Source: Tetrahymena thermophila SB210 (taxonomy: Eukaryota; Ciliophora; Oligohymenophorea; Hymenostomatida; Tetrahymenidae). From it: 64,000 nt of DNA. Positions within the stretch are counted from its first letter, which is position 1, and every line of letters begins with the position of its first letter. Below the pieces are notes generated by a model. That model saw only the letters and a program-made list of their open reading frames with translations, had not been told where the DNA came from and did not search any database. A program made the position numbers and the translations under genes. This document shows, one piece after another, positions 9,313-62,416 of the stretch. Location: the NCBI RefSeq assembly GCF_000189635.1, contig NW_002476266.1:186001-250000 (forward strand). The letters are read 5' to 3'.

Positions 9313-12300
9313 TCATTTTTGTTAAATTAAGAATGGATTTTAATTGCTATCTTCGTAAGAGTTTATCATATTACCATCTGTTGGAGTTTACTTGTTATCT
9401 TCATTGTAGTTATATTCGCTTTAAATATCAGGAGGATAATAAGAACTTGTCTTTAAAAACGGATTCTGGTTTCCATTTTAATTTGATAAACCTTATGCAG
9501 CACTTTCTTGTAAGGCAGAACTATTTATTTAAGATGTTAAGGACATCTCTACTGTGTTTTAAGAATTAGGAGTCAAATTTAAAAATGGGTTATTCATTAT
9601 TTGTTAAGTAGGTTAATTTACCATTTTTGTAATGCTATTCAAAATTTAATCTTGTGGTGTGTTAATTTTATTTATCAATATATTAGGTTATATTTTTTAT
9701 TGATTACTTGATAATTTTTTTGTGTTTGAAGATTTAGTAGGCCATTAATAGTCTTTGTGATATACATACTAAACATAATTGTAGAAGAATAATAAAGATA
9801 TCATCTCTACTATCATTATCAATACCTTTACCGAGAAAATAAATATTAAGATAGCTTTTATTTAGCCTTAGGCAAAATCATAACTGTAAAATTTCGATAA
9901 ATTAGCATCTTTATATTTGCTTAGACTGTAGGCGTAAATAGCCAAGACAAATATGAGTAGGGTGATAATACAGTTTATCAACAAATAGATTTTTGAGCGT
10001 TATGTTGTTCTGAAATTTAATGCTATCTCAGCTATTCTGTAAATGCCATATATTAATAAAACAAGTAAAATAGCACTTCCTTTATCACCACCAGATGCAA
10101 ATATTATTGCAAATGCAGCTTTAAATATTAGCATTGTAAGGAGTTAATTTTTACCTGAAAATGTTGTGTCATTTATGCAGTTCATAAAAAGCACTCCATA
10201 TTTTGTATGCTTATCAAATGTTGCTACATTTATACCGTAATAAACAATAGCTGGGACAAACACTGCATATACCACACCCACAAATGACAGCAACATTCCA
10301 ATAGCATTTATGCCATTTGAAGTATCTATATGCTAGAACTACAATGCTAAAAATGTTATTACTTCTTAATAACTAAAAATCATTATCAATAAGAAAACGT
10401 TCCATTACATGCTCATCCTGAGAGCTTAAAGTATTCTGCCATATAACCAATAGAGCCTATTTTGACTGGTATTACTTGGGTCTTTTGCAAATCTGCTTAT
10501 CAAATAGAGCAAACAAAAAGGTAAGGCAAATAAAATCAAAGGAAATACATTAAAAAGGAAATTCTATGATTTTTCATTAAGTATGTATCTAAAGTCATTA
10601 GGAATTTATTCGTGCATTTCTACATATTTTTAATCATAGCGAGGATCTACATTTCGCAAATAAGAAGATTTCAAAGGATTTGGGAAGAAATAAGCCAAGT
10701 TATCAATATTGAATGCCTTGTATATGTAATCCTTGTTATAAACATTCGCAGGTTCTTGGAAATAAGTAAAGTAGCCTGCAAATTAAGAGATAAACAAAAC
10801 GTTGATCGAAAAAAGTGGATATTTTCCCGATAGAGTGAAACCAAAAAAGGATATTAAGACAATATAGTTGAGAGAAATTAAAGCAGCATCTCCTTAATTT
10901 TCAGATGGTTAACATTCTGAACCTATGTCTTCATAGCCTGGTGGACAACTACAAGTTCCTCTGTAAAATATTCTTTCAGGACTAATACATTCTTAGCAAG
11001 AGTCGTATTCAAAGTTTGAACATTTTGAGCAACTCCAATGGCAATATTATTTAGGAATTATGACTTCTGAAGTAGAGTTTGTATTTCCCTTTATTTTATC
11101 TGCTTTAGACTTATCATAAGTACACTTTTTACTTGATTTATCAACTGAGTAAAGCTCATCAAAGCAATTTATACAACCTGTGTCGAGGGAATTAAAACAA
11201 GATTCACAAGATAAATCACAACAAATTTTGCTTTGAATTCTGTCTAGTCTATATTAACCCGGAGTGCATTCTTTAACACATCTTCCATTTTGAAGAATGT
11301 AACCATTTTTGCATGTTAAGCAGCTGTTTCCATCAGAACAAGTTTCACATTCAGTCAAGCATTTACTACAATTTTATAAAACGCTATCATATAAAGGAAC
11401 AATAGCTTTAGATTTATTTGAAATGTACTCACCCTATTTGCAAGATATTTGGCAAGTTTGCGTATCTGGTGATAGAGCATAAGAAGGAGGACACGATAAG
11501 CAATTATTTTATTAAAACCCATTACATGTGAGGCATGTAGGATCACAGCATATGTTATTTGTTGTGTCTGGGCGCAATTAATCAGGGCACTTAGTATAAC
11601 AATACCCCTATTTAATTTATGGAGTAGATTACAAAAGATAGTGTTAATTAGACTTTAGATTCCCAAGCAATCTTTTTGATACTATTTTTTATGGGCTTAA
11701 AAAGTAGTTTTAAGTGGGATCATCTGATTTAAAGCATTAATAACATTAGTCTAGGCTGATGCATTTTTTGCATCCAATACTACAGTTTTAGCAGCTTTAA
11801 GTGATTTAATCGAAAAATTATCCATCTTGGCATGAAGTAGAAACACATAATTAAAATTGCTTGTTGAAGACAAATCCGCTTGCACACTAACTGCATAAGT
11901 TCAAACTAGCACATTATGTGCAATTAGGTAGAGAGCAAGGTATACAAATTCCTTAATCATTTCGAAATTAATTTGTTGGACAGACTTAAGAACACTGCTT
12001 AAGAGAAGTTACGAACTCATATCCACTTTAACAAACAATACAACTCTGATCATCATTACAGGATTGACAATTTGGAATACATAGAGTACATTGATTTGAT
12101 GTTGAATCTCTGAATTTACCTTAAGGGCATTAAAGATCACAGATATCGACTCGCGATTTAATTAAATCATAACCAGGTTCGCATTGCAAGCAAGTGCTAT
12201 TATCAGAACAATTTTAACAGTTTTTCAAACATTATTCGCAAGTACTACCAGAATAAAAGTATTTATCAGCACATTGATCACAGCTTGATTAATTTTTGCA

Positions 12301-15300
12301 TGAAGCACAATTTGTGATGCAACTTTAGCAATTCGAGCCATCAAAATATTTTCCAATTCCACATTTAGTACATTTTAATTAGTAAGGAATAGAATTATCT
12401 AACTGAGTTCCAGTTGGACACTGTTGAACACATCTATTATTAACTGTATCATAAATAGGGTAGTCACGATAGCAATATGTAGAGCATTCACCATTGTAAT
12501 CAACAACAAAATTAATTTAGGTTTAATTGCATGATTAACACTAATAGTTGTTATTATTGTACTATGCGCAATTTTATGAGCTATCTATTTAAGTATAATT
12601 TCTATCTGGGAACTAAATAGTACATAAATTTCCATTTATGGTATATCCATCAGTACATTTTGTACATTGCCCATTGCTTGGTCCGAAGCACTCTTTACAT
12701 TCTAAGCTGCAAGGGTAGCACCCTTTGTCGAGGCTATAAAATCCCTACGCACAGCCTTTATCATTACTTTTTACCAAGCAGTTAGTAGAATTGGTGCACT
12801 TGAAACAAGATGAATCACAAGGCTATATTTAATTTGTTTAATCATCTAGATAATATCTATCTGGTGGGTAATTAAAAAAGCATTAACCTTGAAACATTGT
12901 ATAATTTTATCTGCAAGTATTAGTTTTATTATCATTATTTGCTTTACCGTTAATAGGAAGAAGATTAGTATTGTTGAATATATTGCTATCATATTAAATA
13001 CATTATCCACACTGTAGATAAAAACCTTAATTGCATTAAAGACACTTAAATCCTTTTCTAATTAAGCATGGCTCTTGTCCATAATTCATTTTACACTACA
13101 GACTCATATAATCTAAATACTTTTATAAATAAATAAATCAATTAAAAAGTAAATAAAATTTTTATTTTATCCCCTCCAAAATACTTTATTTATAGGAAGG
13201 GGGAGGAGAATATAAATGAATGAAGGAAGGGGAGGGTAATATAATGGTTTTTATTGTAATTTCATGATTTATTTGATTTAATTTTATGATTTTTAATAAA
13301 TAAAAAATTACATATGATGGAGAACATTATTTGACACAAATCGCAGGTTAACCCGTAACAGTTGATAATCTTCTTGATGGTATACTAGAAGAAGCTTATT
13401 CTATTTTCTGAAGGAAATAACCATCATTACATTTTATGCAGTTAAAATTTGAGTCATAATCATGGCAATTTTCAACTTCTTAAATACATTAGGATAATTC
13501 ATTCAATTTAAAACCATCTTTACATATAAGGCAGGAATCAGGTTTATTTATATCTTTATATAAGCAATTTGTTGGATTAGAGTAGTTGCAGATTCCAGTT
13601 TAGTTATAATATATCATATTACATTAAGTACAAGTTACACCATCTGTTAAATTATACCCAGGAGAACATTACTTTACACATTCATCGTCTTGCTAATAGT
13701 ACTAATCTGCTTAGTTGCATAAAGGCTGTGTTCCATTTAGATACCCCTAAGGTATATCTATGGCTGTTTAATTATCGCTGAGGATTTAGATATCCATGCT
13801 TAAAGCTGTTGTATAGTTTAAACATTGTGACTAATATTAAATAGAATTATTGCATTAAAAGCACTGATTTCCAAATTTAGCTGGGCAGTTCACATCTCCA
13901 CTGTCACATGGTGGGTTGAAAGAGTTGTTCAAATATTTGCAGTTTGCTTATTATTAAAATAAATATTAAATTTAATTGCCTTAAATACATTTATTAATTA
14001 ATCTTTAAAGTAATTTGAATTTAATAACAGCTTAAAAATTCTATTAATAAGTTTTTTATTTACGTTTATTTAGAATTTTGTAAAAAGTGTAAAAAAAAAC
14101 TATTGATAGATCAGTAAAATTTTGAGAGGCAAATCATATATAAAAATTTTTAAAATCAATAATTTAACTTACGTGGGATCAAGCAGGATTAGTTTTATGT
14201 ACCATATGCACATACTTTAACACAATCTTATCCGAATTTATAGTATCCTTGGTCACATTAAGTAGAGCAAGTACCGTTATGATTTAAGAGGTATCCTTTT
14301 TTACACCTAATACATATTTTTTACTGTATTCCAGTTATTATATTACAGTTTGGGAGCATAGCTTCTTAAGAATCTTATTAAAATTCAATACCAAATTTAT
14401 CTGTGTAAACTCTGGCTTCAAGTATATCTAAAGTTAGATCTTAAGTTTATTCTAAAATCCGAGCAAATATTGCATTTTCTCTATAAATTTAAATGTCTTT
14501 GATAGATAAGATTTTGTAATTGTCATAAAAATATTTCATACTATCAGTAATATTTAAATTGAAATAATTACTTTCATAATCATTAAACTACACAACTTCT
14601 AACTTATTCAGATTAAAATTGAATCTAAAAAACATACCAACAGTAAAAGTGTCTAATATTCCATTTTCAGGATAAGACATTTAGGTAGAATTAGGCAATA
14701 AAAAGTTTAATGCTTAGTTTTGGTAGGTTCCTTCATTAAAATTGATTTTAATCCTATATTTAATCAATAAAATTTTAATAAAAATTAGTTTTAAAAAAAT
14801 TACTTGAGATTGAAAGGAAAATAAGTCACATTCTATAATTTTAAATTCAAAGTAACACCAAACTCTATAGGCGAAGATTTTAGATCAGAACTATTAAGAG
14901 GCAAATGGAATCCAGATTAGTAAATTAACTGGATAGAAGAGAGCTTTTATATCGGAATCTCCAGTTTTGTTAAATTAAATCTTCCAACTTTTTATTTGAG
15001 TAAATCATAGAAATAAAATTGTTTGAAGTTATGGTAGTAATCCAATTTGTAAATAGTTGGTGAAGTAATAGGTTACAAACTACCTTTTAAGTATAATTAA
15101 AGTGCTTTTAATTTTTAAATGATAAACTATTCATCTATTGTTAAGAGAGGTATGTTGTAATTGTAGATTATTCTTAAATTATATAAACTTCCAAACAACT
15201 GAGATTAGCAAACTTGAAGCACAGAGGTACTGCTTAAATAACTTTGTTATGGAATATTAAATATAATTTATTGAAAGTATGGATTAGGGCGTTAATTTTC

Positions 15301-17296: not shown

Positions 17297-18891
17297 TCAA
17301 TTATACTTTTAGCCAGTTTCAAAAAGAGTTTTATAAACATATGCTTCTGCCAAAATTACTTTTAAATCACTTTCGTTCCACAATGTTGTAGGAAGTTCTT
17401 TAAAAAAGTTAATAATATCTTCTTCGTGCTTTAGCTTTTTAATTTTGAGAGACCATTTTAAAATAATAGCGCTGTATAAATAAATGAAATATTAGGATAT
17501 TTAAGAGTCATCGCTGACATAAGTATCGAATAACCTTAAACCTACCTTAATTGAGAACTGACGAAGAAGTAAGCATATTGAACACTTAAATACTTCCTAA
17601 TAAAAATTATCAAGTCTAGAGGTGATATGCTCCAACAAATCGTTATCAAGCCTCTTTAAGACGAGCTATACTTTTTCGAATTACTTTTTAACTCCTGGAA
17701 AATTATTTGTATAATTATCAAGCATTCCATCCAATATTTTACTTAAACACCAATAAGAATCTGCCTCTATTTCCGAAAACTAATCATCAGTTAATTTATC
17801 GAAGTTTGAAGGAATATCTAGTGTTTCTAAATCTAAGACACAATACTCTCCAACAAAAACAATAATGAAGGTAGAAAGAACATCATTCATGCCCTAAACA
17901 TATCCGCTAGCAGGATGGCGAACATTCCAAATGAATAGAATTCTAATGAGTATTTCTTTGATTTTATTATTACGAAATAACTTTGAATTTGGCACTGTTC
18001 TCTCAACATCTTTTATAACTTAATCCAGCCCTTTTTACTCATTTGTATCCCTTTCATTTTCATTAATATTTTCTAAGTAAGTTGCTACCATATCTTTGTA
18101 GTCTTTTCTTTTTCTTGCAATTACTGCTTCTTAAGTATCTTTATTAGTGGGAAGATATTTCAGGAGCACTCTCCAAGCCTTTCCCCTAACACCTTTTTAT
18201 AATACATAAGTATATCTAATAATTCTAGTAAACTCAATTTCATAAAGATATTTTGTTTGTAGAAAGATAAACTCATAAAATTGTAATCTTATAGCGATTA
18301 ACTATCAAAATATTATGTTAATATCATATTATTTACTTACAATTTGTTTATCTAATTACATTTCTTTTTATCATATTTAACAATTTTATTTTGCATTTTT
18401 TAAGATGTTTGTGTCTGTTTTTGAAAACTAAAAATACTCATTTTAAATTTATCTGAGTAAGTGAAAAAGTAAGCGAAAATAAATTTATTACATTAAGGTA
18501 TTCCATCCCATGATAATGCCTTTAACTTATCATAATCGATAATTCTCTGATTTATAATTTCCTAGAATTTTTTAATTCTTGTTTCATTATTGCTTTCTTC
18601 AATATTGCTATCTTCGATGCGAACATAATCTTCGTTTTTGTTATATATCTAGGTAAAATTAACCTTATTAACTATATCGCTGTGGCTTTTCTTTTCTTCC
18701 CTGTAGATTATAATATTTTTAATTATTTAAATTCACAAATCTCATTTTTCAATTCAATATCATTTCATATTAAAATAAATTATAATCAAAAGATGATGAA
18801 TTGAATTAAATCAATTTATCAGTCTCAATAAAACCAAATACTCTTCGCTTTTATCTGAAAAAACTCTCTTAATCTTATTGAAAATGGACAT
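17297..18891 (-). CDS. TBC-domain Rab GTPase-activating protein, TBC1D22-like
   Basis: Exons 18842-18891, 18492-18700 and 17297-18192 (introns 141 and 299 bp) give 384 residues. TBC proteins stimulate GTP hydrolysis by Rab GTPases with two catalytic fingers. Both are present: VIKDVERT supplies the IxxDxxR arginine finger (AGA complementary to 18001-18003) and GYVQGMND the YxQ glutamine finger (Gln coded TAG, complement of 17894-17896). Other family hallmarks are LSWDGIP, RGKAW, RHPASGYVQG, EADSYWCLSKILDG and the C-terminal LPTTLWNESD. The RHPASGYVQG and EADxYWC wording is closest to TBC1D22A/B, whose animal members act at the Golgi. Length equals a minimal TBC protein with a short polar N-terminus. 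The neighbouring TRAPPC2 gene 13 kb away is another membrane-traffic factor, but no link is implied. Confidence 0.95.
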
Positions 18892-21328: not shown

Positions 21329-24173
21329 ATGTAAGATAGTAATTTGCCTCGTATAAACAGTTAACAAAAAAGTACTCATCAAGAAGTAAAAACTGAAAAT
21401 ATCCACAGAGGTAAACATACATTTTTTATGTTAATAATATATGGGTGCATTTAAGTTAAGCTTTAATATTCGGGGGTTTTTAATTTAATTCTAATTTTTA
21501 GTTATATTTGCCTATTTGCTTGCTTAACATACTTTCTTTCTTTTTTCTCAGTAGAAGATTTTCATTATATACACTCATATCTCCTATATTAGGCAAATGA
21601 ATTATATTACATAATTATACTCATATCTAATGAGATGTCAGTTCATTTATAATTGAAGATGATAAAAGTTGAAAAACTCCATAATTTTAATCTAAATTTT
21701 AGTTATACCTACGATTTTTTTGCTTTACTTATCTAGAACTATTATTCTTAAACATTTATTTTTTATATATAACAATATCATAAAAAAGAATATAATAGCT
21801 TTAATATTATTTAATAATAGTATTTATTTGTTTATTTTATTGAACATAGATTAGGTTTATTAAATTGAGTTAGGAGATCCAAAAAACTAATAGGTAAAAT
21901 AAACATTTTTTGTAAAGTTCTCAATAGTCTTATTAATAATGTTTTAAAAAATAAGAATGTCCAAGTAAATTAATCACAGGATAGCTACTAAAACAACAAA
22001 AAAATAAAAAATCAAAGTGAATTAGCAAGTGTATAGATTACAACAAACTAAAATATTAATGAACTTAAAGGCTTTTACAAGGATGAAAATCATGATCATC
22101 ACAATGAAATAGCTACAACTAATGGAGAAACAATTAACAAATTAGAAGAATCAAATAAAGCTCCTTATACAACTCAAATTTTGAAAAATAAATTGATGTT
22201 CTGGTTTATGGTGAACCACGCAGCATTTACTGATTTTTTGTTAGCATATAATATGGGTTTATTCAACACATTGTCTGACCACATGAATTATATTTATGGC
22301 TGGACTGATGATGAAAAAACCTTGTAATATTCTTTGATTAACTCACTCCCTTAAGCTGTTGCTGCTATTGTTTCACTCTTTGCAGGTGGGTGGGCTGCTC
22401 GCTTTGGTCGTAGAAAAATGCTTATAATACTCTTTATAGTAGCCTTGGTAGGAAATGCAATCACCCTCATTGCAAATACAGGTGCTCTGCTAATAGGTAA
22501 AAGTTTACATATTTATTTCTTTTACTCTTTCTACTAAAATTGAGTTTTCCTCAGAAAGTATTTAATAAACTAGATTATTTAACTCTACAAACCTTACTTA
22601 GGCATATATTTAAGTATCAAAAAAAAGTTTTATTTTAAATGAAAAAGTAAATTAATAAAAAAATAATTATTGAAATTTTAAAAAAATGAAATGATTTATT
22701 GATCTTTAAAAAAACAGACAGCTAGCTTAATGATCATATATCAATATAAATATATTCTATTTTTAAAAATGATATTTAAAAAATAAAAATAATGCATTTG
22801 ATCATTAAAAAATTCATTAATCATACTTAAAATTTAAAAAAATTATTTTTCTGAAATTTATTTATGAAAAAAGTTTTTTAACAAATTTTAGTTGATTAAA
22901 GATGATTTATAGTAAATAATTTAATTAGAATAATTTACAAATTATTATTTTAACTATATCGGTTTCCATTAAAAAGATAATTAAATAAAAAATTTATAAT
23001 TGAATAGGACGTATCATAGTTGGTTTAAGCTTTGGAGGATGGTCTTCTATAGGACCTCTTTACTCGATTGAAATAGCATGTAAGCAGTACAAGGGTATTA
23101 GTGGTATCATATACTCTTAGTATTTTGGTTTTGGTATACTGACTGCTTTCTTAGTTGGGTATGGCTTACCAAGTGATGCTAAAGAGAGTGCAACAAACAG
23201 CTACTGGAGATTAATGTACGGATTGCCAATCATATTTTGCTTAATCTCTATAGCTATATTTTTAATATTTTTCAGAGATGAAACTGCTCCTTATCTTTAT
23301 CTTCATGACAAGAATGAACCAAAAACAAAAGCTGTTTTAAACAGAGTTTATACTGAAGCAGTAGCTCAAGAAGAATTTAGCGATTTAAATAATTTCTCTA
23401 AATAAGCTAGTAGTTAAAATGTAGGATGGAAGCAACTCTTTGGCCCTAAGTATAAAAGCAGAATTTTACTTGTTGTAATGCTCACAATAGGTTTCAGTTA
23501 TGTGGGGTGTAATGCTATCAACATTTATTCCTATAATATTATATCAGAATCTTAAGGAGCTAGTACTGCTTAGTTGTTTACAGCAATAATGCCTATAGGT
23601 GATATTATAGGTCCTTTATTTGCTATGCTTCTTATAGAAAAAATTGGAAGAAAAAACCTTTACCTCCATGGACTCTTAGGATGCATGATTACTCTAGTTG
23701 CATTTAGTATCACAGGATGGAGCAGCTATAAGCCTCTTCAAAAATATTTGATTCTACTCTATAAATTCATCTTTGCAACATCTGTGGCACCTGTTCATTG
23801 GAGTAATTTATATATTTATCAAATAATTTAACTTAAGCTAATAAAAAATATTTAAATTAATTAATTAGTTTATCCAAGTGAGATTTTACCTCCAGTTGGT
23901 GTTGGTTTCTTCGGATTCGCCTATTGGGTAGCAAGTTTATCAACAGTTTAATTCTTGCCTTACTTGCTAAATTCTTCAGGAGCTGAAGTTACAATTATTG
24001 TTTTCCCAATAGTATCTTTCTTTGTATTCATCTATATGATGATTTATATGAAAGAAACTACTGGCAAGAATAAAGAATAAATAGAAAAAATGTTTAATTA
24101 GTCTTCCATTTAACAATTCCAACTAGTTAATTAAAATTTACATTCATAAAACACATTAGGAGATAATAAATGA
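21329..24173 (+). CDS. Major facilitator superfamily sugar-porter-type transporter
   Basis: Well-supported exons: (about 21966)-22496, 23008-23802 and 23869-24173, with introns of 511 and 66 bp. A first exon 21329-21410 is proposed; the acceptor of the second exon (21966 chosen) is uncertain, so the N-terminal 30-60 residues may differ. With this model the protein has 570 residues. Sugar-porter signatures are visible in order: ARFGRRKML after TM2, GRIIVGLSFGGW in TM4, the RDETAPYL segment that replaces PESPRYL at the start of the central loop, EKIGRKN after TM8, and WIYPSEILPP after TM10. About 12 membrane spans. The family moves hexoses or other small organic solutes at the plasma membrane or vacuole; the substrate cannot be read from sequence. 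A His/Asp/Glu-rich N-terminal tail (DENHDHHNE) precedes TM1. Confidence 0.88.
22497..23007 (+). other. Unusually long intron in the transporter gene
   Basis: 511 bp, phase 1, bordered by CTAATAG/GTAAAAG and TTGAATAG/GACGT. Splicing restores GRIIVG. It is several times longer than most introns here and extremely A+T-rich. Confidence 0.8.
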
Positions 24174-38121: not shown

Positions 38122-41100
38122 TCATTTGACTATAGAAAATACACTTTGGTATAAATTGCTTATAAATTTTGAAATATTAATTTCCTCTTCTTTGTTACTA
38201 AATTCTCTATAATAATACAATAAAAATTTTTAAAAATGAGATATCAATCTATCAGAAAAATATTCTTCTTACATGTTATTAATTGTTATATTTTTGTTAT
38301 TCAAGATGAGTTTCTCAACTGCTGACTGGATTTATGCGTTTTTCATTAACTTGCCTTATATTTCTTGACTTTAATTAATATAAAATACATTTATGATGAA
38401 TAATTTAACATAATTTAATTCATTAATTTACTTTAGATTTATTTAAAGTGTATAAAGAGAAATAGTACTTAATGCCCAATTTAAGATTTCAAGCACTCCT
38501 TTTGGACTGATGTCATTTTTTCTATTTAAAATTTTAATTATTAAAGCAACTTTTTTTCAATAAGCGAATTTACTTTAAATTTATGACAAAATTGTTAAGT
38601 TTATTAAAGTTTTGTAAATATTCTATCATAGTTAAAATACAGTCATCACTAACTAATGACTGTTCTAGTTTAACATTCAACTCTTCTATATAGTCTAATT
38701 TTTGAAGTCCTTTCATCAAAATGCTCATGTTTTGTATGCTAAAATCGCACCCGCTATTTTTAAAAGGACATTTTGATTCATTAATCTAACTAACTAACAA
38801 TTAATTTAATTACCTGAAATCTATTTTCAGCACTTTTAATTTCTTGAAATCAATAATAATCTCAGCAAAGCTATTAATTGCATCTGCTATATCTTAATAC
38901 TTCTATAGTTTATCATAGAATGAGAGGTCAAGATACTCTAACTATTTATATTTGGAAATACCAGTGAAGTAGCTCTTAAGGCTTTCTGTTGAGTTGAATT
39001 AAATTTAAGCCTTTAAGCTTCTTAGTTATTCTGGGTAGCAACTAGAAAGGTAATCTGCTTCTTACATATCAATTGCTTATTATCCAAGCTGGATATCAAT
39101 AGATTCCAATTTTTCTAACGCAATTATTTAATTTCCAAAAGTATTACAAAACACAATCGGATCATACGTATTATCCCTATTAATTAATATATATTTGTAT
39201 TTCAGTTAAAAAATAAAAATATTAAATTATTTTTTTACTCAATACTCAATTAAAGAAATTTAAGGTTAGCGTTACATTTTATTTTATCGAAAAATTCATT
39301 TAAATTCTCTACATTCAAATTATTGTTAGAAATATTTAAGTTGAGATTCTCCAAATTTTTTTACTATTTTAAATTATTTTTTAGGTCAATCATTAGATTG
39401 TTTTTCACCCTAGTTCCCCTAATATTAATAATGAATGAATGAATTTATAAATCAATGAATTTTAATATTGAAAATCTACTTCAAATTCAAATGAATCTTT
39501 GTAAAATTCTGATTTTCAAAAACCTACTTAAAAGTCTTTTTAAGCACATTATCCGTTTCGATACAATTTCTTTTATTGAAAAACAAAAAAAGTTTAAAAT
39601 TAGAAAGAAAAAGTAGAAATTATACTCTAGATTTAATTCAACCTGCTGAACGTTTTAAAGGAGAGTTAAGTAACCAACCAAATACACATTTTAATTGATT
39701 TCATGTTGGATGGAATTTCTTATTTTTTTTAAATTAAAATTATTGATGAAGACATATCCTAAAAATAAATAAATTTAAGTTTTTACCCTAAGTTTAAAGC
39801 TATAGATTTAATACTTGTTTGAGAGGGTGTGAAAAGACCAACAGGATTTTTCAGTTATTTTGAAACAAATGCTTCTCTTTAAAATTTTAACAAATAATTT
39901 TATTAAAAATAAAACTTATTAGAATTAATTTTACTTAAGATTAATGTTTAAAATCTCAGCTACATTCAGATAAGTAAAAATAGATTTAACTATCTCAAGG
40001 GCAGAGTTTGTAATTACGTTATCAGATAGGTCTAATTCAAGCTCTTTTAGAAGACTTACTTTTTAAAATACTAATGAGATAATATTTATTCCATCATCAT
40101 TAATATAGTTTTTGCTAATTTTCAATTGTTTAAAAACTTATTAGATTTTATTATATAAAATGTGATAATTTACCTTAAGTTTAGTCTCAGTACTTACACC
40201 TTTCTAATTTTCTCTAAACATGAGCAGAGATTATTCAAAGAACTTTGAGGAAACCAACAATTACTAATTAAAATGTTTCTTAAAAAAGTAAAATTAACTT
40301 TACAACAATTTACTTTAACTACAAGTTTAACTCTTTAATATAAACAAAATTCTAAATTGAACTAAATAATTAATTAAAAGCATTTGAATCATTTAATTTA
40401 TTTCTCCCTAAGTTTAAAGAAAATGTGTGCAGATCTTAGTTTATATTCAGTAGCATTTAAGACAATTCATTCAAAGCTTGGCTCTAAATGCAATTCGACC
40501 TAAATAAAAAGTTATCATTTATTTTATAAACAAAAGAATATTAGAAATTACTCAAAATAGAGGTTAAGAATTGAAATATTCTTCAAGTTTGATATACTTT
40601 AAAATATTTGTACACATCCTTGAGTTTATATATTATTTTTATTGAGATTAATTTCTAAACTATTTAATTTTTTCTTGTTCTTCAAACAGTCAGCCAAGAT
40701 TTGTATCTGTTTTGAATCAATAATGTTTTATCTATTTTAAATAACAAATTTATAATTCAAAATTTAAAATAAAAACTTATTCAAAATTTAGAATAAAAAC
40801 TTATTATCAAAATTTAAAATAAAAATTATTTACTAAAGATCAATCTTCAATTCAAGAAGCTTGTTCTTATTTTAAAGAGCTTAAGCTAAGCAATTCAAAC
40901 CTTTGCCAGTCATATTATTCATTTTAAGATTAAGGACTAAAACTTTTAATTTTTAAGAATCATTTATAAAACCAGAGCAGTATTCTACACCTTCATCGCA
41001 AATTTAATTGTTTCTAAAAAATAAAAAAACATATTTAATGAAAATAAAGACAAATATTTATATTAAAAATAGCATCTTTAAGATGCTGAGTTAATTTTTC

Positions 41101-41782
41101 TAAAAAAAATATTAAATTTAATTAAAATAGTAAAAATTTGTATACCCTATATCCAACTCCAAGTGAACTAGTTATGTATATTACTTCATATGAGTAAATA
41201 AAATATTGCTTCCATCAGCTTAAATACAGTTGTTTTATACCTGCAAATTAAGATGCTGGATTTGTTAGATGTTTTGAAGTTCTTTGCAAAGTATTATAAT
41301 ATGATTCTTTGAAATTTATAAGCCACTTTTATTAGCAATTTATTTTGGTTAATTAATTATGATTAAATTTAATTTTAAAATATCAAATGAAAATTGTACT
41401 TTGATAAAACTTAGAGGAAATATGAGTTAGAATATTTTTCTTTGTTTTGTACTAGCTAAGCTAGGTCTATTTTTTCTTCATCGATCTGTATTTAGGAATT
41501 AGACAAATCTCTAAAAATGTATCCTTCTTTTTCGCTTATTAGATGCTAATCTTTAAAATAGATGTTGAGGGATTAAAAGTCCAACAAAGATTAAGATATG
41601 GTAGAGAAAGATAAGTAGTTAAATTCCTATTGACTAATTAATATAATTTAATTTATTTAAAATATATTTTTTTCAAAATGTGTGTTTGTTACTCAGCTAT
41701 TATTTTAATTGATGTGCTCTATGGAAGGGACTTAAAATGCTTAATCAATAACTTAATCTAGTCTACGTTTTCCATTTTACCA
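38122..41782 (-). CDS. Leucine-rich-repeat region, probably the C-terminal part of the XK-related gene
   Basis: Phase-consistent exons from the 5' side: 41693-41782, 41400-41633, 41146-41325, 40834-41013 (the last two both 180 nt). Further LRR exons lie between about 40735 and 38440, and a final exon ends at TGA 38122-38124 (C-terminus LYQSVFSIVK). Repeats such as LVHLELDIGNNQICDEGVEY, LKVLVLNLKMNNMTGKGLNC and LNSLEINLNKNNIQTQGCVQ follow the ciliate pattern LxxLxLxLxxNxIxxxG. Such repeats form curved protein-binding solenoids. Each exon carries roughly one or two repeats, so the array looks expanded by exon duplication. An internal ATG at 41773-41775 (MENVDQIK) could start a separate gene, but the upstream exon splices into this region in frame and contains no TGA before that ATG. 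Exons below 40800 were not all resolved. Confidence 0.75.
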
Positions 41783-41832
41783 CTAATTTATTTTTTTATA
41801 GGTTAAAATCAGAGAATTATAAGAAAATTTAC

Positions 41833-44452
41833 CTCCATGTAAGTGCTACTAGTTTTAGCTTACTTTTTTGTATGAATGACTTTAGAGATAAAAGTTTCAG
41901 GGAATGTTTGTCAACTTGGATGGTGTGGTTAGCTAAATCCTCTTCAAAAGTGAATAATTTTTGCTTGTAAGATTGGCCTGCCTAGCCTACTCCCTTGATA
42001 AAATCTATTTCTCCGCTTTTAACTTTATTCCAAATATAAACTCTTTGCTTTTACTTTTAGTCTTTGCCTCTAGGAATAATGATAAATCTTAAAAGTTTTT
42101 CATTACGATCAATTGCATCTTTGAATTAGATGGTATGCTTATTAATTGGCTTAAGCTTTTCATATTAAAATACATACAAATCACTGTTTAGAGGAAATGG
42201 TATTGATTTAGCTATAGCTTCTTTCATATTAGATGTTAATATATTCTTGTTATATATAATCTGCATAAAAAGTGTTTTTCTCTAGTTAACTGGACATTAT
42301 TATATTGATTGTTTTATGTCTGATGAGATTATATTGACAAAATTAATTTGATCAAACTCAATAGATTCATCGATTTCAATATCATATTTTTATTTTTTCT
42401 CCTCTTCATTTTGATGCTGAGTTAGCTTTAATTCCATGTTAATTTTACCCTTTTTTACGAATAAATTCAAGTAGATATCACTTTTGTGAATAATCTCTGA
42501 GCATACTAAGAGAGGCTTGAAGTTGCACTTTTGCAGTTTATATTTTATGTACATTCCTGACTTAATATCGATTTCAAAGTCATAGCGTTTATCGTCTTCA
42601 AAATCATCATCTTCAAATTAAATTTCCTCTATTCCACTAAGATTTTCTTACATTTTCCAAATCGAATGAGGACTACCATTTTAATTATTAGGACTAGCTC
42701 CAACAAATGGACTCTAGGTGTCATTTCTCCTACTGCTTTGAAACCACAAGCTTTCTTCATTTCTTAGGGTGTGATGTATATCTCCATCGCCTTTTACATT
42801 TAAGCTGTTTTAAGATGCTTAAATAAACTAAGTAGTCTTCAACAAATCTTATCCATAAACAGATTTTCTTTATGGAATGTTCAAGTTAGGGCCAAGAGAT
42901 GATGGCATTGAGTTTTTTCTAACCTAAATAAGAGGAGCTACTATGTTGTTAGAAGCTTCCTAAAGGCTAACTACCGCTTAATCTTTTTGATTTTAAATGT
43001 ATTCTTATTAATTAATAGAAAAAAGCAAATCTACTCCATCTTAAATTTTTGAATGAGAAGCTATCGATCTTTGTTTATTTTTAGAATGAATTAATGAATT
43101 AATTTATTTATATTGAATGAATAAAATATTTTTGGAAAGGAAAAAAAAACAAAACAATAAAATCGAAGTAAAATTAAACAATTTTTAAGAAAAAAATAAC
43201 AATAAAATAATTATTTATTTATTAATTAATTTTACGGAATCCTGATTTCTAATTTTTATTCATCAAATTCTTTTTCTCTATTTAAGTCTTCTCTTTCAAT
43301 TTTACGACTAAAATTATTTTATTTAAATAATTATTAATTCTATTAATTGAAATACAAATTTATGAATTACCTAATACTGAGTTTTCTCTTTTTTTTCTCT
43401 ATCTCTCGATAATTTCTTCCATCAATGTACTCAATATCATATTCGAAGTCACATTTAATGTATAGTACTTCTAAATTCTTAAGCTATGGAATTACTTTTT
43501 GTAATTATTTAAATGAGTTGATGCATTTTTTATCTAAAATAAATCTAAAATCTAAAGTAAGTCTTCTTAGTTTGTGCATCTATAAGAAGCTCAGTCCTAT
43601 TTAAATAACATCTTTTGCTAAGGGGTACTCATGCTTTTAAAAATAAATAAACAAATCTTCTACTATATGAAGATTTCTAACCTTTTACAAATTTTTAGAT
43701 AACTAAAGGGTATCAACTACTAGCTATTTGTTAATAGCAAACTTTTTATCCTTATCGTAATATTATGAAAGATAAGTGATCTACCTAAAAAATCTATCAA
43801 TTATGACATATATAATTCCTATGGTCCTCACAATTGAAATAGAACTAAGTAATATGCTTATTATATTAAACCAATCCCACTCATCATTCATATTATTATT
43901 TATCAGCTAGATTATTAGCTAAGGAGCGCTCTCTAGGAAAGCTTAAACCAAGAAACAAATGTTTTATTCAAAAATTTGATTATCATCATAGAAAAAAGTG
44001 TCAACAAATGAAGGCTGCAAATTCATCCAAAGTCTCAGCTTCTATTCTTGCAGTTTAGACTCTTTCAAATAATTATTCTTCATAATTTCTTTGTTAAAAA
44101 TAATTTGGAATTTAGTATATAAAATATAAGGAAGAATAAATCCTAAGATGTTAAGTTGGTTCAGAGCCATAGACCAAAGGCTACACTTGATACTTTAAAG
44201 TAAGTTCATTTTCATAGAAGATTTTCTTTTGGTTAAGAAGGTCAAAGTTAAAAGAGATTAAGCAATAGGCGAAATGATTAAAAATGCTAGCTGCACATTT
44301 TTAATAAACTAGCTTTCAAAATGTCTTGTGCGATAATATACTATATCTGTTATAATATCGAGCAACCCCTGCATCATAAAAAAGAAAGCTATAGTGATGT
44401 GTAAAAATTCCCTTAAGCTCCTTCCTGCTACCTAAATCTTTAGCCAATTCAT
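41833..44452 (-). CDS. XK-related (XKR)-like membrane protein, N-terminal part of a probable XKR-LRR gene
   Basis: Exons 43371-44452, 43236-43307 and 41833-43068 (introns 63 and 167 bp) join in phase. The first about 250 residues have several membrane spans: GLLDIITDIVYYRTRHF resembles the XK-family LLDxxTDxxxxxxY segment, and FLESAPQLIIQLI matches the XK hallmark ESxPQLxLQL. XK-related proteins include plasma-membrane phospholipid scramblases (XKR8). The chain continues with LRR-like sequence (MHKLRRLTLDFRF, LKNLEVLYIKCDF), a Lys/Arg-rich linker, a Gln/Ser-rich region with DFEDDKRYDFEID, and a mixed domain ending KLVALTWR. The last donor (41831-41832) joins the LRR region through a 49-bp intron in phase, so both features are probably one gene of more than 1,500 residues. 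Confidence 0.7.
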
Positions 44453-48849: not shown

Positions 48850-51800
48850 ATGGGAATAATCTCAATATTCTATTTATTCTTCATAATTTGGATATTCACT
48901 ACCAATATAAGTGCGTAGATATGTACACCTAGCAAGGTTTATGTCATTTAGAATTCAATTATTTCAGGGGCTTGCTAAAATCCTGCATAGCCATCTGATT
49001 AGATTAATAGAGATGCTACATAAATTCCATTTGCACCTCAACAATTTTCAATATCTGCTTGGGTTCAAATCTCTTCAACAGCAACGGGAAACTTGTATTC
49101 TTTATTCCGTTTGACAGAGAGTGCAAGTGATACAACTCCAACTACAAATCAAGGAGTTAGATTAGCTGTCTTTATAGACAGAACTTTAGGCAGTAGAAAA
49201 ATTTCGGTTTAATATTCTACAACTGGTAAATAAATATCTTTAAACATTAAAACATGCAAACAAAATATAAATAGAATTAAATTAATAGCATCTTCAACTA
49301 TGATTGATAATATGATTAATTATTTTATTATTTATTTAAAAAAATATTTTGAATTAATTATTAGCTTAAATTTCTCAAACGGACTCTAATTCTTTTGCTT
49401 TTTTAGATGATAAGTGGATGTTTATTTTTGTCTCCTATAGCTTGACTTCTGGGTATATTTCATATTTCGGATGGTAACCTAATTTAGTTCCAGCAAATGA
49501 CATAACCTTTACAAAAAATGTTAGCCCAGGAGTAAATTTCAATTCAGCATTTGATACGAATGCAGTATTAAATATATTATATTGGGGTTCAAATGTTAAG
49601 TTTTGTGGAAAAATTAATAGGTTTGTTTATTATTCTAATTATGTATTACCTTCAACTTCAACCCAATGGATGATTTAAGCTCTCACAGATGGTTCTTTAC
49701 CTTAATAAACACTACTGTATTTGCGTTTAGAATACTCAGATAACAACCAATCAATTATAGATTTTAGTGGGTAAGCTATCAGGAACGATGCAGTTCTTGG
49801 GTTTACCTCATAAGCTGAAGCTTCTGATCCTGGAGTACCTAATTCTCAAAATGGTCTTACTTTATAATCTTAAAAGCTAGTAACAGTTTCAGATTTTATA
49901 TGGAGTGGTTAGCAGGTATCAATTAAAATATAATATATTTTTTAAAAGTGACCTATTCAAGATAAATAATTTCAAATAAATTTAAATAATGATCCAAAGT
50001 CTATAAATTTAAATGAATATTTAATTATTAGCAACAAAGAATATAGATTTTAGAACAACAGTGAATGAAGTTTTAAAAAGAATAGCCAAATAAATTATAC
50101 ATTAAACTATATTACTTATTTATTAATAGAATCAATTTTTCATTAAAAAAGATTATTTACTATTAGTAAGCTTCCAAGGGAAGTTTATATTTTTTATTAT
50201 TTAAAGAAGTTCTAGCTAGAAAAGTAGATATATATATATATTATTTAAAATAAAAAAATAAAATAAATCAAAAATAGATTCACATAAATGGGAATATATA
50301 TTATAAAATCTACTAAATTTTGAAATATTTTAATTTAATAAATGAATGAGTTTTTAATCCATCAAAACTTCTACATTATCATAACAAAAAGAAATGCTTC
50401 TGTCTGCTAGTCTGTCAGTCTTTGCAAATCATTAAACTTTGAATCAATAAATATTTTATTAATTAAGCATAAATTGATTTATATAAAAAGTTTTTTATTT
50501 AATTACTTATTAATTTTAAAAGGAATTTTTAAATATTTGAATTAACTGATAATTTAAATTTATAAAAATTAACAAGGGAGTAACGATATCATTTTGGATT
50601 AAATTTCCTTCACCATTCACTATAACTACTGATGCAGATTTAACTGATGCCGTAAAAGATGTAATTTTACTATCGAAGAAGACAGCTACCAATATTTTAA
50701 ATGTTTTAGCAAATTAAACTCCAAATATAAAACTTGTGATTAATAATCAAGTTTATACAGATTCAAAGTCATTAACTCTTAATACTTGGACTCAAGTTAT
50801 AATCAGCTTGGCTTTTTATACATCTTCTGTTCCTTATTACAATTATTTTATTTTTAAATTTGACTATGGAGATTTAACTACCACTGGATACTAAAAATTA
50901 TACACAAACACTGTATGGGATGAAACTGTTTTGAACGGATTCACTATAGGAAGCACATTAAATTAGTTTGTAGGAAATATTTAAATGAGCTAGTTAAAGA
51001 TTTATTCAGGATTAGGAGTCTATTCTAATCCTAGTTGCATTTCTAATTGTTAAATAGCTTTTGCAAAATTTTCATCAATCTTATGTTTAAATTGTGCAGC
51101 TAGTTATTATGAACAATATGGAATTTGTTATTCATGTAAAATTAATTATTTTAATTTTTATTTAGTTTTTCTAAAAATATTAAAAAAAGCTTGTGATACC
51201 TCGGAGTTTGGTGCAAATAATTAAATTGTTAAAACATGTTCAACATGTACTTCAACTTGCACATATTGCACAGGTACCATAACGACTGGATCTACTTCAA
51301 TTTCTTGTGTAGCTTGTGCACCAACGTATTTTTTAAGTACTAACAATTGTGTTATAGCTTCAGCATGCAATCCTTAGGCAGCTAATCCTAATAACGGATA
51401 ATGCTAATCTTGTGGAAATTCTGTTATTGATGCTCTCGAGTAATGTGATGATGGTAATTTCATAGACTATGATGGCTGCACCAATTGCTAAATTGACCCT
51501 GGATATAATTGTATTAATGCTCCAATGCCAAGCAAGTGCGTTATTGCTTGTGGAGATGGAATAGTTTAATCTAGTAAAAAATAACTTTTTAAATTTAAAT
51601 ATTTCATTTTTGCTAATTAAAATTTGATAGATGAGTAATGTGATGATGGAAATTAGATAGACGGTGATGGTTGTTCTAATTGCATAGTAGATACAGGTTT
51701 CTAATGCACAGCATCTAACCCTAGTGTTTGTGTATCGTTGTGTGGGAATGGAGTTGTAAATCTAAATGAAGTAATAGATTCTTGTTTAAATATCAAAAAA

Positions 51801-54800
51801 ATCTTCTTAAATTTAATAAATAAAAATAAAGGAATGTGATGATGGTAATACAATACCTAACGATGGATGCACTAACTGCTTGGTTGACATTGGATATTGT
51901 AATTTTTTTAAAATGATATACCATTTTTAAAATAATAATTAATTATTTTTTGTTTTTTGATTTGAAAAAATAAAAAAATTTTGCCAAAAGTTTTTAAAAA
52001 TGAACTTAATTAGTTAAGCAAAAAAAGGGAATTTATTACTATTTTTATAGAAATATCTTTTCATATTTATTAAGGATTTTTTATCATTTTTATAATATTT
52101 GTGATAGTTACTTTAAATCAAAATATTTTAAATTATTAAAGACTGTAGTGTTTAGCCATGTACAACACTTTTAACACTTTGTGGAAATAATAGAAGAGAC
52201 ACAAACGAATAATGCGATAATGGAAATACTACTGGATGCACTAATTGTAGTGTAGATTCTGGATATTATTGTTAAGGAGGATCTATTACTTCACCAGATA
52301 CATGTTAGCCATTAGTAATTTATAATTCATTTTTATACTTTTATCTATTTTCAAATAATAATTTATGAATAAATAAAGTGCCCGAATGGAAAACTTGATG
52401 GAAACGAAGAGTGTGATGATGGAAACAGCACACCTGCAGATGGTTGTAATGCTTCTTGTTAAGTAGAAACTGGGTGGTTTTGCACTAATTCATCGCCCTC
52501 TACACCATCAGTATGCACACAAATATCAAATATTGGAAGTCCGTGCCCTGATAGTATAAGAGAGCCTAATGAAGTTTGTGATGCAGGACCTAAAATCAAT
52601 AATTAACCAACTGGATGTAATGATAGTTGTACTGCAGTATTGCAAGGATTTATATGTTAAGGAGGTTCAACAACATCAAAAGATATATGTAAAAAACAAT
52701 TTATCTCTATAAAACAATTTGAAATTAAATTTAAAACTGATTTTTTTAATTTATTAATTTAAAGGTATTCCAATATGTGGAGATGGAATTTAATAATATA
52801 ATGAGCCATGTGATGATGGTAACATTTTAGCTGGAGATGGATGTGATCAAAACTGTAACATAGAATAAAATTATTCATGTACTAATATACCTCTAGCATA
52901 GTCAGTTTGTACTAATCTTTGTGGAAATGGTGTCATTGATCCTAATGAGGATTGTGATGATGAAAACTTAAATGTAAAAAAACTTTATGAAAAATTAATT
53001 TTATAACAAAAAAATAATTTTAAATAAAATAATAAATTAAAAATTAATTTTCATAATTCATAAAAAAATTTAAATGGGTATCTTAAATTAAAATTTAGTT
53101 AAATTCCCAATAAATTTGGCTTACTTTTTAACTGAAAAATATTGCCAAAAATAAAGAAGCAATAATTCTAACAATATTTAATATTGTTATATTAATATTC
53201 TATGATAAAAACCAATTATTATATTAAATAAAATTTTTAAAGCTTTAGTAAAATTTTGAAATAAATTTAATTCTAGATTAAATTAAATTAATTTTATTTA
53301 TGATTTTTTAATTCAAATTTTCGGTTAAATAAAGAATGGTGATGGATGCAGCTCTGATTGCAAAATAGAAATTGGATTTAGCTGTACTCAGATTATTGCA
53401 GGAGGTAGGTCAAGTTGTTTTTAATGTGCTAATAATTGTCTACAGTGTACTAGCAAAGCTATTAAAGATTGTACTCTATGCTTCCCAAATTACTATAGGA
53501 ATCCAGTGACAGGTTCATGCGATAAAGAGTGCTCGAGTGGTTATTACGCTGATAAGGCAACTTAATCTTGCTTAACGTGCTTAGATATGAATTGTAAAAC
53601 ATGTTTATCAAGTTAGAAATCTGCATGCGTTTCTTGCCAGAATAGCTATTATATAGGTGAGGGTAATTGTTATCAAGAATGTCCTACTGGTTTTTACCCA
53701 ACCCTTAATCCTGTTTTAGGAAATGAATGCACTCGTTGTCCATTTCCATGTTCAAAATGCACTAAATCAAATGATTGTTAAGATTGTGCTGATCTCTACT
53801 TCCTTGATCCCTCTTCATTGACATGTAAGTAATGTGGATTAGATCCAAATTGCTATTCTTGTGATTAGTAGCAATCAAAGTGCTTAAAATGTGCAATAGG
53901 TAATCTAATTTTAATAAATAAAATTATAATAGGTTTTATTTATGTTAATCAATTCGAAAAAAACTTACAAAAAAAAATAATTCTAATTTGTAAATATAAA
54001 AAATTAAGTTTCAACTCATTTATTTTGTTAAAAATTAAAAATTTTCACTATCTAAAAGCAAATTAAATAAAATAGTTTTTTTTGAAATAAATTGATGAAA
54101 CAAATTAATTTTTAGAAAATAAAAACTATTTTTTGAAAAATGTATATATTTTAATTTTAGATTAGATTAGATTTCATGAGAAATATTCAACTTACTTGAC
54201 AAAATGTTTAAAAAATTATAATCCTCAAATACATAAAAATTAATTAACAAATAATTGAGAAAATTGAAATTATTTTTTTTAGATAGTACACATTTATTTA
54301 GGATGAATTAAATATTGATATTTAAATATTTTCAAATAATTTCTTTTTGAAAATAATTTAACTAAAATAAACTACTTTTACATAAATTTTATTTTATTTT
54401 ATATTTTATTTTAGGCTATAAGGTGTCTGGTAAATCGTGTGAGTCTTTACCAAGCGTTTGTGGTGATGGATACTTTTAACCTTCTACTGAGAAATGTGAT
54501 GATGGCAATACAATAAATGGAGATGGCTGTTCGTCTAGTTGCTAAATAGAAACAAATTATGCTTGCATATTAAAGAATAATGAAGGCCCATCTATTTGCT
54601 ACGAAATGAGACCTCCTAAAGTTGCAGGATATGAATCTAAAATAGATTATTCTGTGATTTTTATATAATTTGACCGCTAAATATAAAATCCTCCTGTAAA
54701 CATCACTCAGTAAGATATCATCATAAAGATACCAGGGTTGTCTTCAAAAAGCTACAATTATACTATGCAATTCATTGATTCATAAACAATCAAAGTTTAA

Positions 54801-56657
54801 TTTAATTATACAAAAACTGTTTAAGATTTAGTTGCAAATATTGATTTTTCAATGTCATTTAGGAATAATATTCAGGATATTTACAATTACACTCTAGTCT
54901 CATAATTTACTCCTTTTTCTGTTGGCTTACCATATTACATTTATTACTCAAATCAAGAAACACAAGCTGCCTTAGCTGTTTCTTGGGTTTTTATTTCCTT
55001 TTCAATTGTTTTGCTTGGACCGTTATTTGCTTATCTTTACCTATTTGGATAAGGAAGAGTGTTCAAATATGTTGAAGTAATTCAAGTAATTGGTTTGATG
55101 AGGTAAAATTTTTATATTTTCCATGTTATCAAAATTAATTTTAACTTTGAAAGAATAATTTTATGAACAATCATAAATTTTATTTTTTTACATTTAATAA
55201 AAAAGAAAAAAAAACCATTAACTTTTCAAGTTTATTGTTTAAATTTTATTTTACTAAGAACTTATTTTTGTTTAAAAAGGTTTTTCAACATCAGATTAGA
55301 TGTTTTCAGTTATTAGCTATTTTAGCAGGCAGATTTAGTTTACAATCTGAGAGGGATGTATAGTATTTTTTAAGCTATCCCTGTCTCTCCAAGTGACCTA
55401 TAAAATTTTGCTGATAAAGATAATTTAGTCATCTAAAGACAATTGCTAAATAGCAGCTTTATCCACTCAATTTTAGGAACGATAATACTGTGTTTCATTA
55501 TTCTTTCGCTCTTATAGGCAATAAATTTGCTTCTTTACAGGTTTGTAGAAATTGACTAAGTCACTCAAGTAACAGAAAAAATAAAGGAAATTATGTAATG
55601 GGATGCTTACATCAGGTTATTTGACTTTATTTTCTACTATTTATGCATTTCAATATTCTTGCAATTGTAATCAACATCATTTTAAACTATTTTGTCCATT
55701 TTAAACTGTGTTATTTGCATCTTATCACTTATTGGAGTGCTCTTTCTCGGAGGCGTCTTGGTTAAGAAATATGTTTTTTATCAAAAATTGCACAAAAGAA
55801 CAGATTGGTTTGAGAAATATTTATATTTGTTTGATGGGCTGAGATTCAATTTAAAAAGAGCAAAATATTACATTATTTACCCATACATAAACAAGTTTGC
55901 CTATGCAGCTGTCCTCGTTTTCTTAAGTGGTAACACTTTTTACTAAATTATTTTGTGCACAGCTGTGAGACTGTTAAATGTAATAATTTTGTTGATATCA
56001 AGGCCTTTTCATTTTAATTTGATGTAGCGCCGTGATATTGCTTGTGAATTATTTTTAATTCTTATGATTATTCTTTGTTTAAACTGCACAAATGATGAGT
56101 CTCTTTCCCAACAGAAAAGGATAATGGCAATAATTTTTATAGTTTTGTCATTTGGTTTTATTTTTGCATATTCTGGTTTATATTTATGGACCGTATTGCA
56201 GGAGGACATATACTTTGACCCCATAAATATAGTACCTCTCAAGGCTAATCCAGAAGATTGGATGAGCTAATAAGAAAACAGTAAATAAGAATCAAGTAAA
56301 AAAGGAGATGAAGAAGAAGATTTTGAGGGTTCTGATCCTCCTAAGAAAAACTAAATTGTACCAATCTAAGAAAGTCCAAGCCACTCTGAAAATGTTTAAG
56401 GTGATGATTACAATTTAGGTAAAAACCAAGCCAAACAAACTGAAAATAAGGTAAATAATGAGGAAGAAGAGGATGAAGAAGATGATGATATTTTTGCCGA
56501 ACATTAAAACGCAAACACAAAAAAATTAACAAATTTAAGAAGTCAGAACCAGTAAAGTAGTTCTTATGTGTAAAAAAACATAAACATAATCCAACATAAT
56601 GAAGACTAGGATGATGATTTTAGTTAACAAAATGAAATAAATACCTATTAAAGATGA
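48850..56657 (+). CDS. Very large LamG / DUF4215-repeat / multi-TM surface protein
   Basis: At least a dozen exons; the first ones are 48850-49225, 49407-49915 and one starting at 50577 (introns 181 and 661 bp). A signal peptide (MGIISIFYLFFIIWIFTTNI) is followed by two LamG/concanavalin-like domains (FSISAWVQIS .. DDKWMFIFVSYS and VTISFWIKF .. FVGNIQMSQLKIYSG). Next come eight DUF4215-type repeats, each CDDGNxxxxDGCxxxC, coded between about 51430 and 54543, interrupted by a furin-like cysteine-rich block (53400-53900). The C-terminal third (from about 54960) has several membrane spans, beginning VSWVFISFSIVLLGPLFAYL, and ends in a long acidic and Gln-rich tail (EEEEDEEDDD; ending QNEINTYQR). 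It is probably a surface or cortical protein that binds glycans or proteins outside the cell. Exon borders between 51100 and 55700 were only partly fixed. Confidence 0.85.
51430..54543 (+). repeat. Eight DUF4215-type cysteine repeats in the protein
   Basis: Repeat cores at about 51439 (QCDDGNFIDYDGCTNC), 51634 (ECDDGNQIDGDGCSNC), 51834 (ECDDGNTIPNDGCTNC), 52210 (QCDNGNTTGCTNC, shortened), 52409 (ECDDGNSTPADGCNASC), 52806 (PCDDGNILAGDGCDQNC), 52952/53334 (DCDDEN..NGDGCSSDC, split by an intron) and 54493 (KCDDGNTINGDGCSSSC). Similar repeats are known from myxobacterial surface proteins and protist proteins. Confidence 0.85.
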
Positions 56658-61786: not shown

Positions 61787-62416
61787 TCATTTTCTATAAG
61801 AGGTAATTTTTTACAAAATTGTTTAATTTTGGAAGCATCTTAATGAAAGAAAGATTCCAATCATGTGAGCTGGTTTATTGTTTACCTTACTCTAGACGAG
61901 CCATTGCAAAGCGTAGTGACGGAGGTAGTATTGGAATTGCTTTCCGTATCTTTCGCTCTCGATAAGTCTTACCAAGAAATTATTGTTAATTGCATGGCGA
62001 TCACAGAATTTTTTAAATTGTTTTTTAATGGTTGCACTATCTTTTTCAAGAATGTCCATGCACTCGAGAATCAAGCAGTCACTCTTCTTATTGACATAAG
62101 TGATGAAGCTTTTTATGAGGTTTTTAATAGTATTGTTAGCTTCTTTATAAAAATTAAATTATTCTAAAAGTTAGTTATCGTCTCTTTCTTCAAAGTCTAC
62201 CCATTCATATTTGAAGGAATAGTAAAGTTAAGTTAAATAAATCTTATAATCTCTTTATTCGCAAGCAGAATTTACTTAGACCTCATCCAATATCATTGCA
62301 AATAGCTATTCTTCACTCATACTTTCAAAGGTAGCGTCATCGACAGAGTTTGGAAGGCTACTCATTGAGGGAGAATTCTGATCACATATTTCAAATGAGT
62401 TTGAAGAAGACAACAT
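61787..62416 (-). CDS. Single-exon protein of 209 residues, function unknown
   Basis: One uninterrupted frame from ATG 62414-62416 to TGA 61787-61789. The N-terminal 40 residues are Ser/Asp/Glu-rich (MLSSSNSFEICDQNSPSMSS), then a helical region follows with CLILECMDILEKDSATIKKQ, FCDRHAINNNFLVRLIESER and FQYYLRHYALQWLVQ. Its G+C content is visibly higher than the flanks, with codons such as CTC, CGC and GAG, which supports coding. No membrane span, signal peptide or recognised motif. The last about 35 residues (from NKPAHMIG) are more A+T-rich and could be 3' sequence after a missed splice. Confidence 0.72.

Follow-up and report, generated by a model that had tools for sequence, protein, structure and literature searches.

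A Putative Half-Size XK-Related Membrane Domain Fused to a Leucine-Rich-Repeat Array in a Tetrahymena thermophila Gene Family

Introduction

How much of an XK-related membrane protein is retained in a Tetrahymena thermophila SB210 gene that appears to run from an XK-like N terminus into an array of leucine-rich repeats (LRRs), and is it really one gene? Located on the minus strand of a 64,000-nucleotide stretch of contig NW_002476266.1 (positions 186,001 to 250,000, hereafter the window), at window positions 38122..44452, the gene had been described in a first-pass annotation as an apparent fusion of an XK-related module to an LRR array, which would be an architecture new to the family. As described in PMC8298096, XKR proteins are built from two repeats, each with four membrane helices, and XKR4, XKR8, and XKR9 are the human members tied to phospholipid scrambling. 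Here, we report that the fusion of the membrane domain and the LRR array in one polypeptide is well supported, that judging from profile matches and hydropathy only the N-terminal XK repeat seems to be present, with LRRs in place of the second repeat rather than a full XK module, and that there is what looks like a real, apparently undescribed protein family of XK-LRR loci in the same genome.

Results

The assembly searched comprises 101 Mb in 445 contigs (the window being G000:C244:186001-250000), and coding frames were read in the ciliate code, with TAA and TAG as Gln and TGA as the only stop; this usage and the 90-bp phase-2 LRR exons described below are in keeping with Tetrahymena. Exon 1 of the gene (43371..44452; this and all other features of the gene are on the minus strand) encodes residues 1–358, that is, the putative half-XK membrane domain followed by a first LRR-like block. 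It matches the Pfam XK-related profile PF09815 at 29.3 bits (E = 5.4e-7; cut-off 24.8 bits), and the domain alone (residues 1–238) does so at 31.1 bits (E = 1.5e-7), as the first-pass annotation had led us to expect. No XK match was obtained with three locally shuffled versions of exon 1 or with its reversed sequence, and in Pfam, at E values up to 10, exon 1 matched nothing besides XK-related. When exon 1 was compared by phmmer with 177,635 distinct PDB sequences, the sole match up to E = 10 was human XKR8 (7dce_X, E = 0.82), a weak match, yet one that is in register at the motif in the third transmembrane segment (TM3). The alignment to PF09815 (residues 21–211) covers profile positions 6–173 of 337, i.e., the first half only; the XK-related match is supported, but it is not a match to a full XK module.

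Hydropathy analysis (19-residue mean ≥ 1.4) gives five peaks, all within residues 16–218, and none in the remaining 1462 of the 1680 residues. Their order fits one XK repeat (TM1, TM2, a half-inserted helix [IH1], TM3, and TM4), the segment between TM2 and TM3 being read as the half-inserted helix, as in the XK-related family; both the order and the long TM2-TM3 loop resemble the N-terminal domain of XKR9 as described in PMC8298096. TM1 (residues 16–39; 44336..44407) and TM4 (residues 199–219; 43796..43858), both placed by hydropathy and alignment columns, contain D32 and D36 and R209, respectively, and TM4 is the last hydrophobic segment of the protein. TM3 (residues 161–183; 43904..43972), where the match to XKR8 is in register, carries the motif FLESAPQL, in which P177 is invariant in all 11 rows of the family alignment described below. 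With the profile match ending at position 173 of 337 and the peaks stopping at residue 218, the two repeats of XK-related proteins are not both present: the window protein is without TM5–TM8 and IH2 and has the LRR array instead.

The 19-exon gene encodes 1680 residues, with frame and splice sites read directly from the DNA, and runs from an ATG at 44452 to an in-frame TGA at 38124-38122, so that both ends stand as first annotated. All 18 introns of the curated model are GTA...AG and in phase 2, a count that is not independent because phase 2 guided the choice of sites; a dynamic-programming model without phase constraint (intron penalty −3) has 16 of its 19 introns in phase 2. Penalties of −6 and −9 reduce the gene to 12 and 8 exons, with exon 4 skipped and exon 3 joined to 41633 in frame, and the model with penalty −9 stops early, at 38513. 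A phase-biased model also offered small upstream exons bypassing the ATG at 44452; these were not adopted because in 9 of the 10 other domain rows an ATG is available as a start a short distance upstream of TM1 (paralog starts were chosen by eye, and the C332 piece does not reach far enough upstream to judge). The first gene finder fuses neighboring genes, and its gene ends were left unused.

Between the membrane domain and the LRR array lie exon 2 (43236..43307 in the curated model), a charged linker, and exon 3 (41833..43068), composed of a low-complexity stretch, a middle region with no Pfam match above cut-off, and, at its end, a possible LRR strand, LKLVALTW, recognized by eye. A homologous middle domain is not claimed, the resemblance of the window to the paralogs C291A and C291B in this region having been seen by eye only. 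The junction queried earlier is intron 3 (41783..41832; 50 nt, phase 2), which reads GTAAATTT...AAATTAG from 41832 to 41783 and links "...KLKLVALTW" to "SGKMENVDQIK..." in frame; by eye, it is placed behind a strand-like segment, like the introns between the LRR exons. If intron 3 is left unspliced, the frame terminates at a TGA at 41747-41745. The join between the membrane part and the LRRs is kept in all three dynamic-programming models, and the in-frame passage proposed in the first-pass annotation thus holds.

Exons 4–19 (38122..41782) encode the LRR array, of some 20 repeats of 30 residues, as delimited by the gene model, periodicity, PDB matches, and a unit profile. Their lengths are 90, 234, 180, 180, 180, 186, 90, 180, 90, 93, 90, 180, 363, 180, 90, and 247 nt, i.e., 11 of 16 are exactly 90 (n = 5) or 180 nt (n = 6) in the curated model. 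The hydrophobic periodicity of residues 821–1680 ranks lags of 30 (0.291) and 60 (0.183) first and second among lags 2–65, and LxxLxLxL-like motifs recur ∼30 residues apart at ∼20 places in residues 927–1591; the bare motif count is not decisive (28, versus a shuffled mean of 15.4 and maximum of 30 in 2000 shuffles). With an LRR-unit profile from which the window had been excluded, 11 units were detected in the window protein, against a mean of 0.25 and a maximum of 1 in 20 shuffles, and phmmer matches the LRR part to solved LRR proteins in the PDB (best E = 1.6e-6). In its tandem units of ∼30 residues with LxxLxLxL strands, the array agrees with LRR proteins of the ribonuclease-inhibitor-like type. 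The Pfam profile LRR_6 stays below its cut-off of 23.4 bits in the window (11.5 bits) and reaches 86.4 bits in the paralog C271. LRR-like segments had also been noted within the XK part; the first LRR-like block (residues ∼239–352; 43397..43738, delimited by eye), which shares its exon with the membrane domain, is not significant by itself (3 motifs versus a shuffled mean of 2.5), but it coincides in position with the first LRR block of the paralogs.

A genome search with exon 1 returned one weak relative, at C291 (E = 0.001), and was extended by single-protein genome searches and tblastn of pieces; further single-protein searches added no new locus. At least 12 loci in the genome carry this membrane domain, a minimum since the search gives lower bounds: the window, C291A and C291B (in tandem), C154a1, C154a2, C154b, C214, C271, C394, C363, C332, and C184. 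The window gene is, in other words, not a single oddity. The C154a2 copy (G000:C154:235289-233595), beside C154a1, looks decayed and was omitted from the alignment (A3), which has 11 rows and in which long paralog loops were trimmed by hand. Every one of the 11 rows is recovered by a leave-one-out profile, with the window domain scoring 63.2 bits (E = 4.1e-18) against a profile of the others, compared with 3.9 bits for the best of 100 local shuffles. Among viral contigs, 121 stretches fit a pattern, and none of them encodes a relative.

LRR units above the maximum of 20 shuffles are found in 10 of 11 loci. No LRR unit was found by the unit profile in the 996-residue frame of C184, the signal in C154b is weak (4 units versus a shuffle maximum of 2), and single unit hits outside the LRR arrays in C291B (196–217) and C394 (221–245) are probably false. 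The membrane domain and 7 LRR units (maximum of 2 in 20 shuffles) share one TGA-free frame of 1532 codons at C363 (105098-100503, up to the edge of the piece analyzed). At C154a1, the membrane domain shares a 780-codon frame with the first LRR block, which tblastn matches to the LRR part of C291A (E = 3.5e-7). With both parts in single frames at C363 and C154a1, the fusion is therefore independent of the introns of the window gene. The C363 copy (G000:C363:105098-100503), intron-free over its 1532 codons, may be a retrocopy or represent the ancestral state. In a tree of the 11 rows, C271, C363, C394, and C332 are separated from the other seven with a support of 100/100 (midpoint root only; 6 of 8 inner branches unresolved), and the window row has the longest branch. 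Because both groups carry LRRs, the membrane-LRR fusion probably predates their split.

The Xkr8 residues needed for scrambling, which form its path, are given in PMC8500837 as D26, D30, K/R134, E137, E141, and R183, on helices α1, α4, and α5; in the retained half, we take these helices to correspond to TM1, TM3, and TM4. As in XK-related proteins, the window protein has an acidic pair four residues apart in TM1 (D32 and D36, comparable to D26 and D30 in Xkr8) and an E-x-x-PQL motif in TM3, with E174 ahead of PQL (177–179), a triplet found in 2 of the 11 rows; Q170 occupies the place matching Xkr8 E137, and R209 is in TM4. Spacing, rather than a published alignment, is the basis for the correspondences of TM1 and TM4.

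At G000:C212:667071-669380, we noticed an XK-related gene of full length (hereafter C212 XK), whose product has a C-terminal coiled coil recognized by eye. It matches PF09815 over positions 3–325 of 337 at 20.5–21.2 bits, below the 24.8-bit cut-off. A VPS13 gene starts at about C212:671480 (VPS13_N, 3.7e-44), downstream of C212 XK and on the same strand, an arrangement reminiscent of the XK-VPS13A partnership described in humans (PMC9436381). Between the two genes (C212:669536-670733) are LRR-like, mostly phase-2 exons that an unconstrained model joins to C212 XK; this would be a second, full-length XK-LRR fusion, and neither Pfam (LRR_14, E = 0.018) nor the PDB gives a significant match for these exons. 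A second full-length XK gene was considered at C215 and rejected: the sequence at C215:34457-34654, which is interrupted by a TGA in frame, is a fragment that corresponds only to the C-terminal part of C212 XK, with ∼60% identity. Elsewhere in the window, we noted cysteine-rich proteins with Furin-like_2 and DUF4215 repeats (9334-13080, minus strand; 53323-53901, 50607-51782, and 54414-55076, plus strand), a RabGAP-TBC domain (17312-18193, minus), a sugar transporter (23007-24086, plus), and a DUF4441 protein (61856-62416, minus).

Discussion

The reading that we favor, with somewhat less than even confidence and on sequence comparison, is that the gene encodes a one-repeat XK membrane module that carries a cytosolic, controlling LRR array and pairs to give a full core. 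The N-terminal domain would be one of the two XK structural repeats, made up of TM1, TM2, the half-inserted helix IH1, TM3, and TM4. The start of TM1 and the end of TM4 would both be on the cytosolic side, which would put the LRR array in the cytosol; we place it there because the long TM2-TM3 loop of XKR9 is described as intracellular (PMC8298096). The array would then bind a cytosolic partner or signal and thereby control the membrane module, and the two-repeat core would have to be rebuilt by pairing of the half-XK module, whether with a second copy, a paralog, or an XK protein of full length. The cytosolic location of the array, the pairing, the regulatory role of the LRRs, and any transport of lipids or ions are inferences. 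The charges of the 11 rows (Lys + Arg versus Asp + Glu) are 19 versus 9 before TM1, 17 versus 12 in the TM1-TM2 loop, 83 versus 43 in the TM2-IH1 loop, 38 versus 47 between IH1 and TM3 (loops cut), 10 versus 20 between TM3 and TM4, and 25 versus 24 after TM4; the basic TM2-IH1 loop fits a cytosolic placement.

In LRRC8 volume-regulated anion channels, too, a cytosolic LRR array comes after a membrane domain of four helices, and the LRR domains are thought to control the channels in the way envisaged here. The LRRC8 membrane domain is pannexin-like, unlike that of the window protein: a domain of the pannexin/LRRC8 type was considered and rejected, exon 1 having no such match in Pfam, where its only match at E values up to 10 is XK-related.

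Several observations weigh against an LRR-controlled half-XK module. The charges outside the TM2-IH1 loop do not settle the topology, so that the fit is only partial. The protein lacks the second XK repeat; of the three candidate lipid cavities that PMC8298096 describes for XKR9, two lie between the repeats and the third in the repeat that is absent here. Nor are the putative path residues constant: D36, E174, and R209 vary among the paralogs (D32 is present in 8, D36 in 5, and E174 in 7 of the 11 rows). With half of the fold absent and the path residues variable, it is nearly as likely that the half-XK domain is a mere membrane anchor and the protein an LRR receptor or scaffold, with no passage of lipids or ions, as would befit the proposal that Tetrahymena LRR genes sense bacteria or food (PMC6564038). 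What speaks against a plain anchor is that one transmembrane helix would suffice for it and that it has no obvious need for the Pro in TM3, an NN pair, and W192, each of which is kept in all 11 rows.

Other negative results concern the XK kinship itself. PF09815 matches only 1 of the 11 domain rows, that of the window, and none of the 10 paralog rows. An exon-by-exon search of the whole genome with PF09815 gave no match at E = 0.001 and one, C212 XK, at E = 0.025, in a search so insensitive that the window exon, which passes in hmmscan, went unreported. C212 XK is absent from the best 40 of 3150 frames found with the family profile, and in hhalign it aligns to the family, in register at TM3, with a non-significant probability of 0.7% (E = 0.083), hardly better than a piece of an unrelated sugar transporter used as control (0.4%, E = 0.14); the corresponding figures for a piece of XKR8 are 0.1% and E = 0.4. 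Finally, the 3-row and 8-row domain profiles (A1 and A2) match nothing in the PDB; a false intron had removed IH1 from the C291A row of A1, and a corrected row is used in A2 and A3. Because these paralog, profile, and hhalign comparisons are negative, the XK kinship of the family hangs on the window copy, the TM3 motif, and the topology. The domain might thus be some other domain of four to five helices with a local resemblance to XK, an alternative that we hold to be unlikely: scores of 29.3–31.1 bits against a cut-off of 24.8 bits come with clean controls, the sole PDB match of exon 1 is XKR8 and is in register, and the N-terminal domain of XKR9, as described in PMC8298096, agrees with the window domain in peak order and in the long loop between TM2 and TM3.

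A bolder version of the half-XK module with controlling LRRs would have the half-XK domain pair as a lipid-moving module gated by its own LRRs, making the loci a ciliate family of LRR-gated scramblases, based on the repeat in which the Xkr8 path residues lie, and possibly a relic of the XK family from before the duplication of its repeat; judged from sequence features, this seems quite improbable to us. The least credible alternative, to which we give hardly any weight, is that a half-XK gene adjoins a separate LRR gene: although there is an ATG at 41775 in the frame of exon 4 and exons 3 and 4 are merely 50 nt apart, the upstream frame would end at 41745, within the downstream coding region, and two separate genes are rejected in view of C363, with both parts in one frame, and of the in-phase intron 3 of the window, which joins the two parts in all three gene models.

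The claim of a new architecture holds for the fusion and not for the LRR array. In the open-access literature, searched by titles and abstract openings, with subscription papers and database annotation outside its scope, no account of an XK-LRR fusion was found. The array itself, with exons of 90 or 180 bp, phase-2 introns, and a 30-residue unit, is of the type that Xiong et al. (2019; PMC6564038) report for Tetrahymena LRR genes, which are arrays of 90-bp exons with phase-2 introns and of which some are already reported there as fused to other domains, e.g., a protein kinase. Most of the genes in that report are without a transmembrane domain, in contrast to the half-XK domain of the XK-LRR loci. 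For T. thermophila, the same report gives only a single case in which two LRR exons may have fused, as against six 180-bp exons in the window gene, and it describes the exons of this gene class as almost never fused, as against the intron-free 1532 codons of C363.

If the membrane domain is indeed the N-terminal XK repeat, a half-size XK protein exists in many natural variants, and it becomes a testable question whether one repeat, alone or paired, is enough to move lipids, a question worth asking because the Xkr8 path residues sit on the helices that we equate with the retained repeat. If true, the reading presented here would also mean that membrane-bound forms have arisen within the large LRR expansion of Tetrahymena, most of which is without membrane domains, and these forms would bear on the idea that the LRR genes of Tetrahymena sense bacteria or food.

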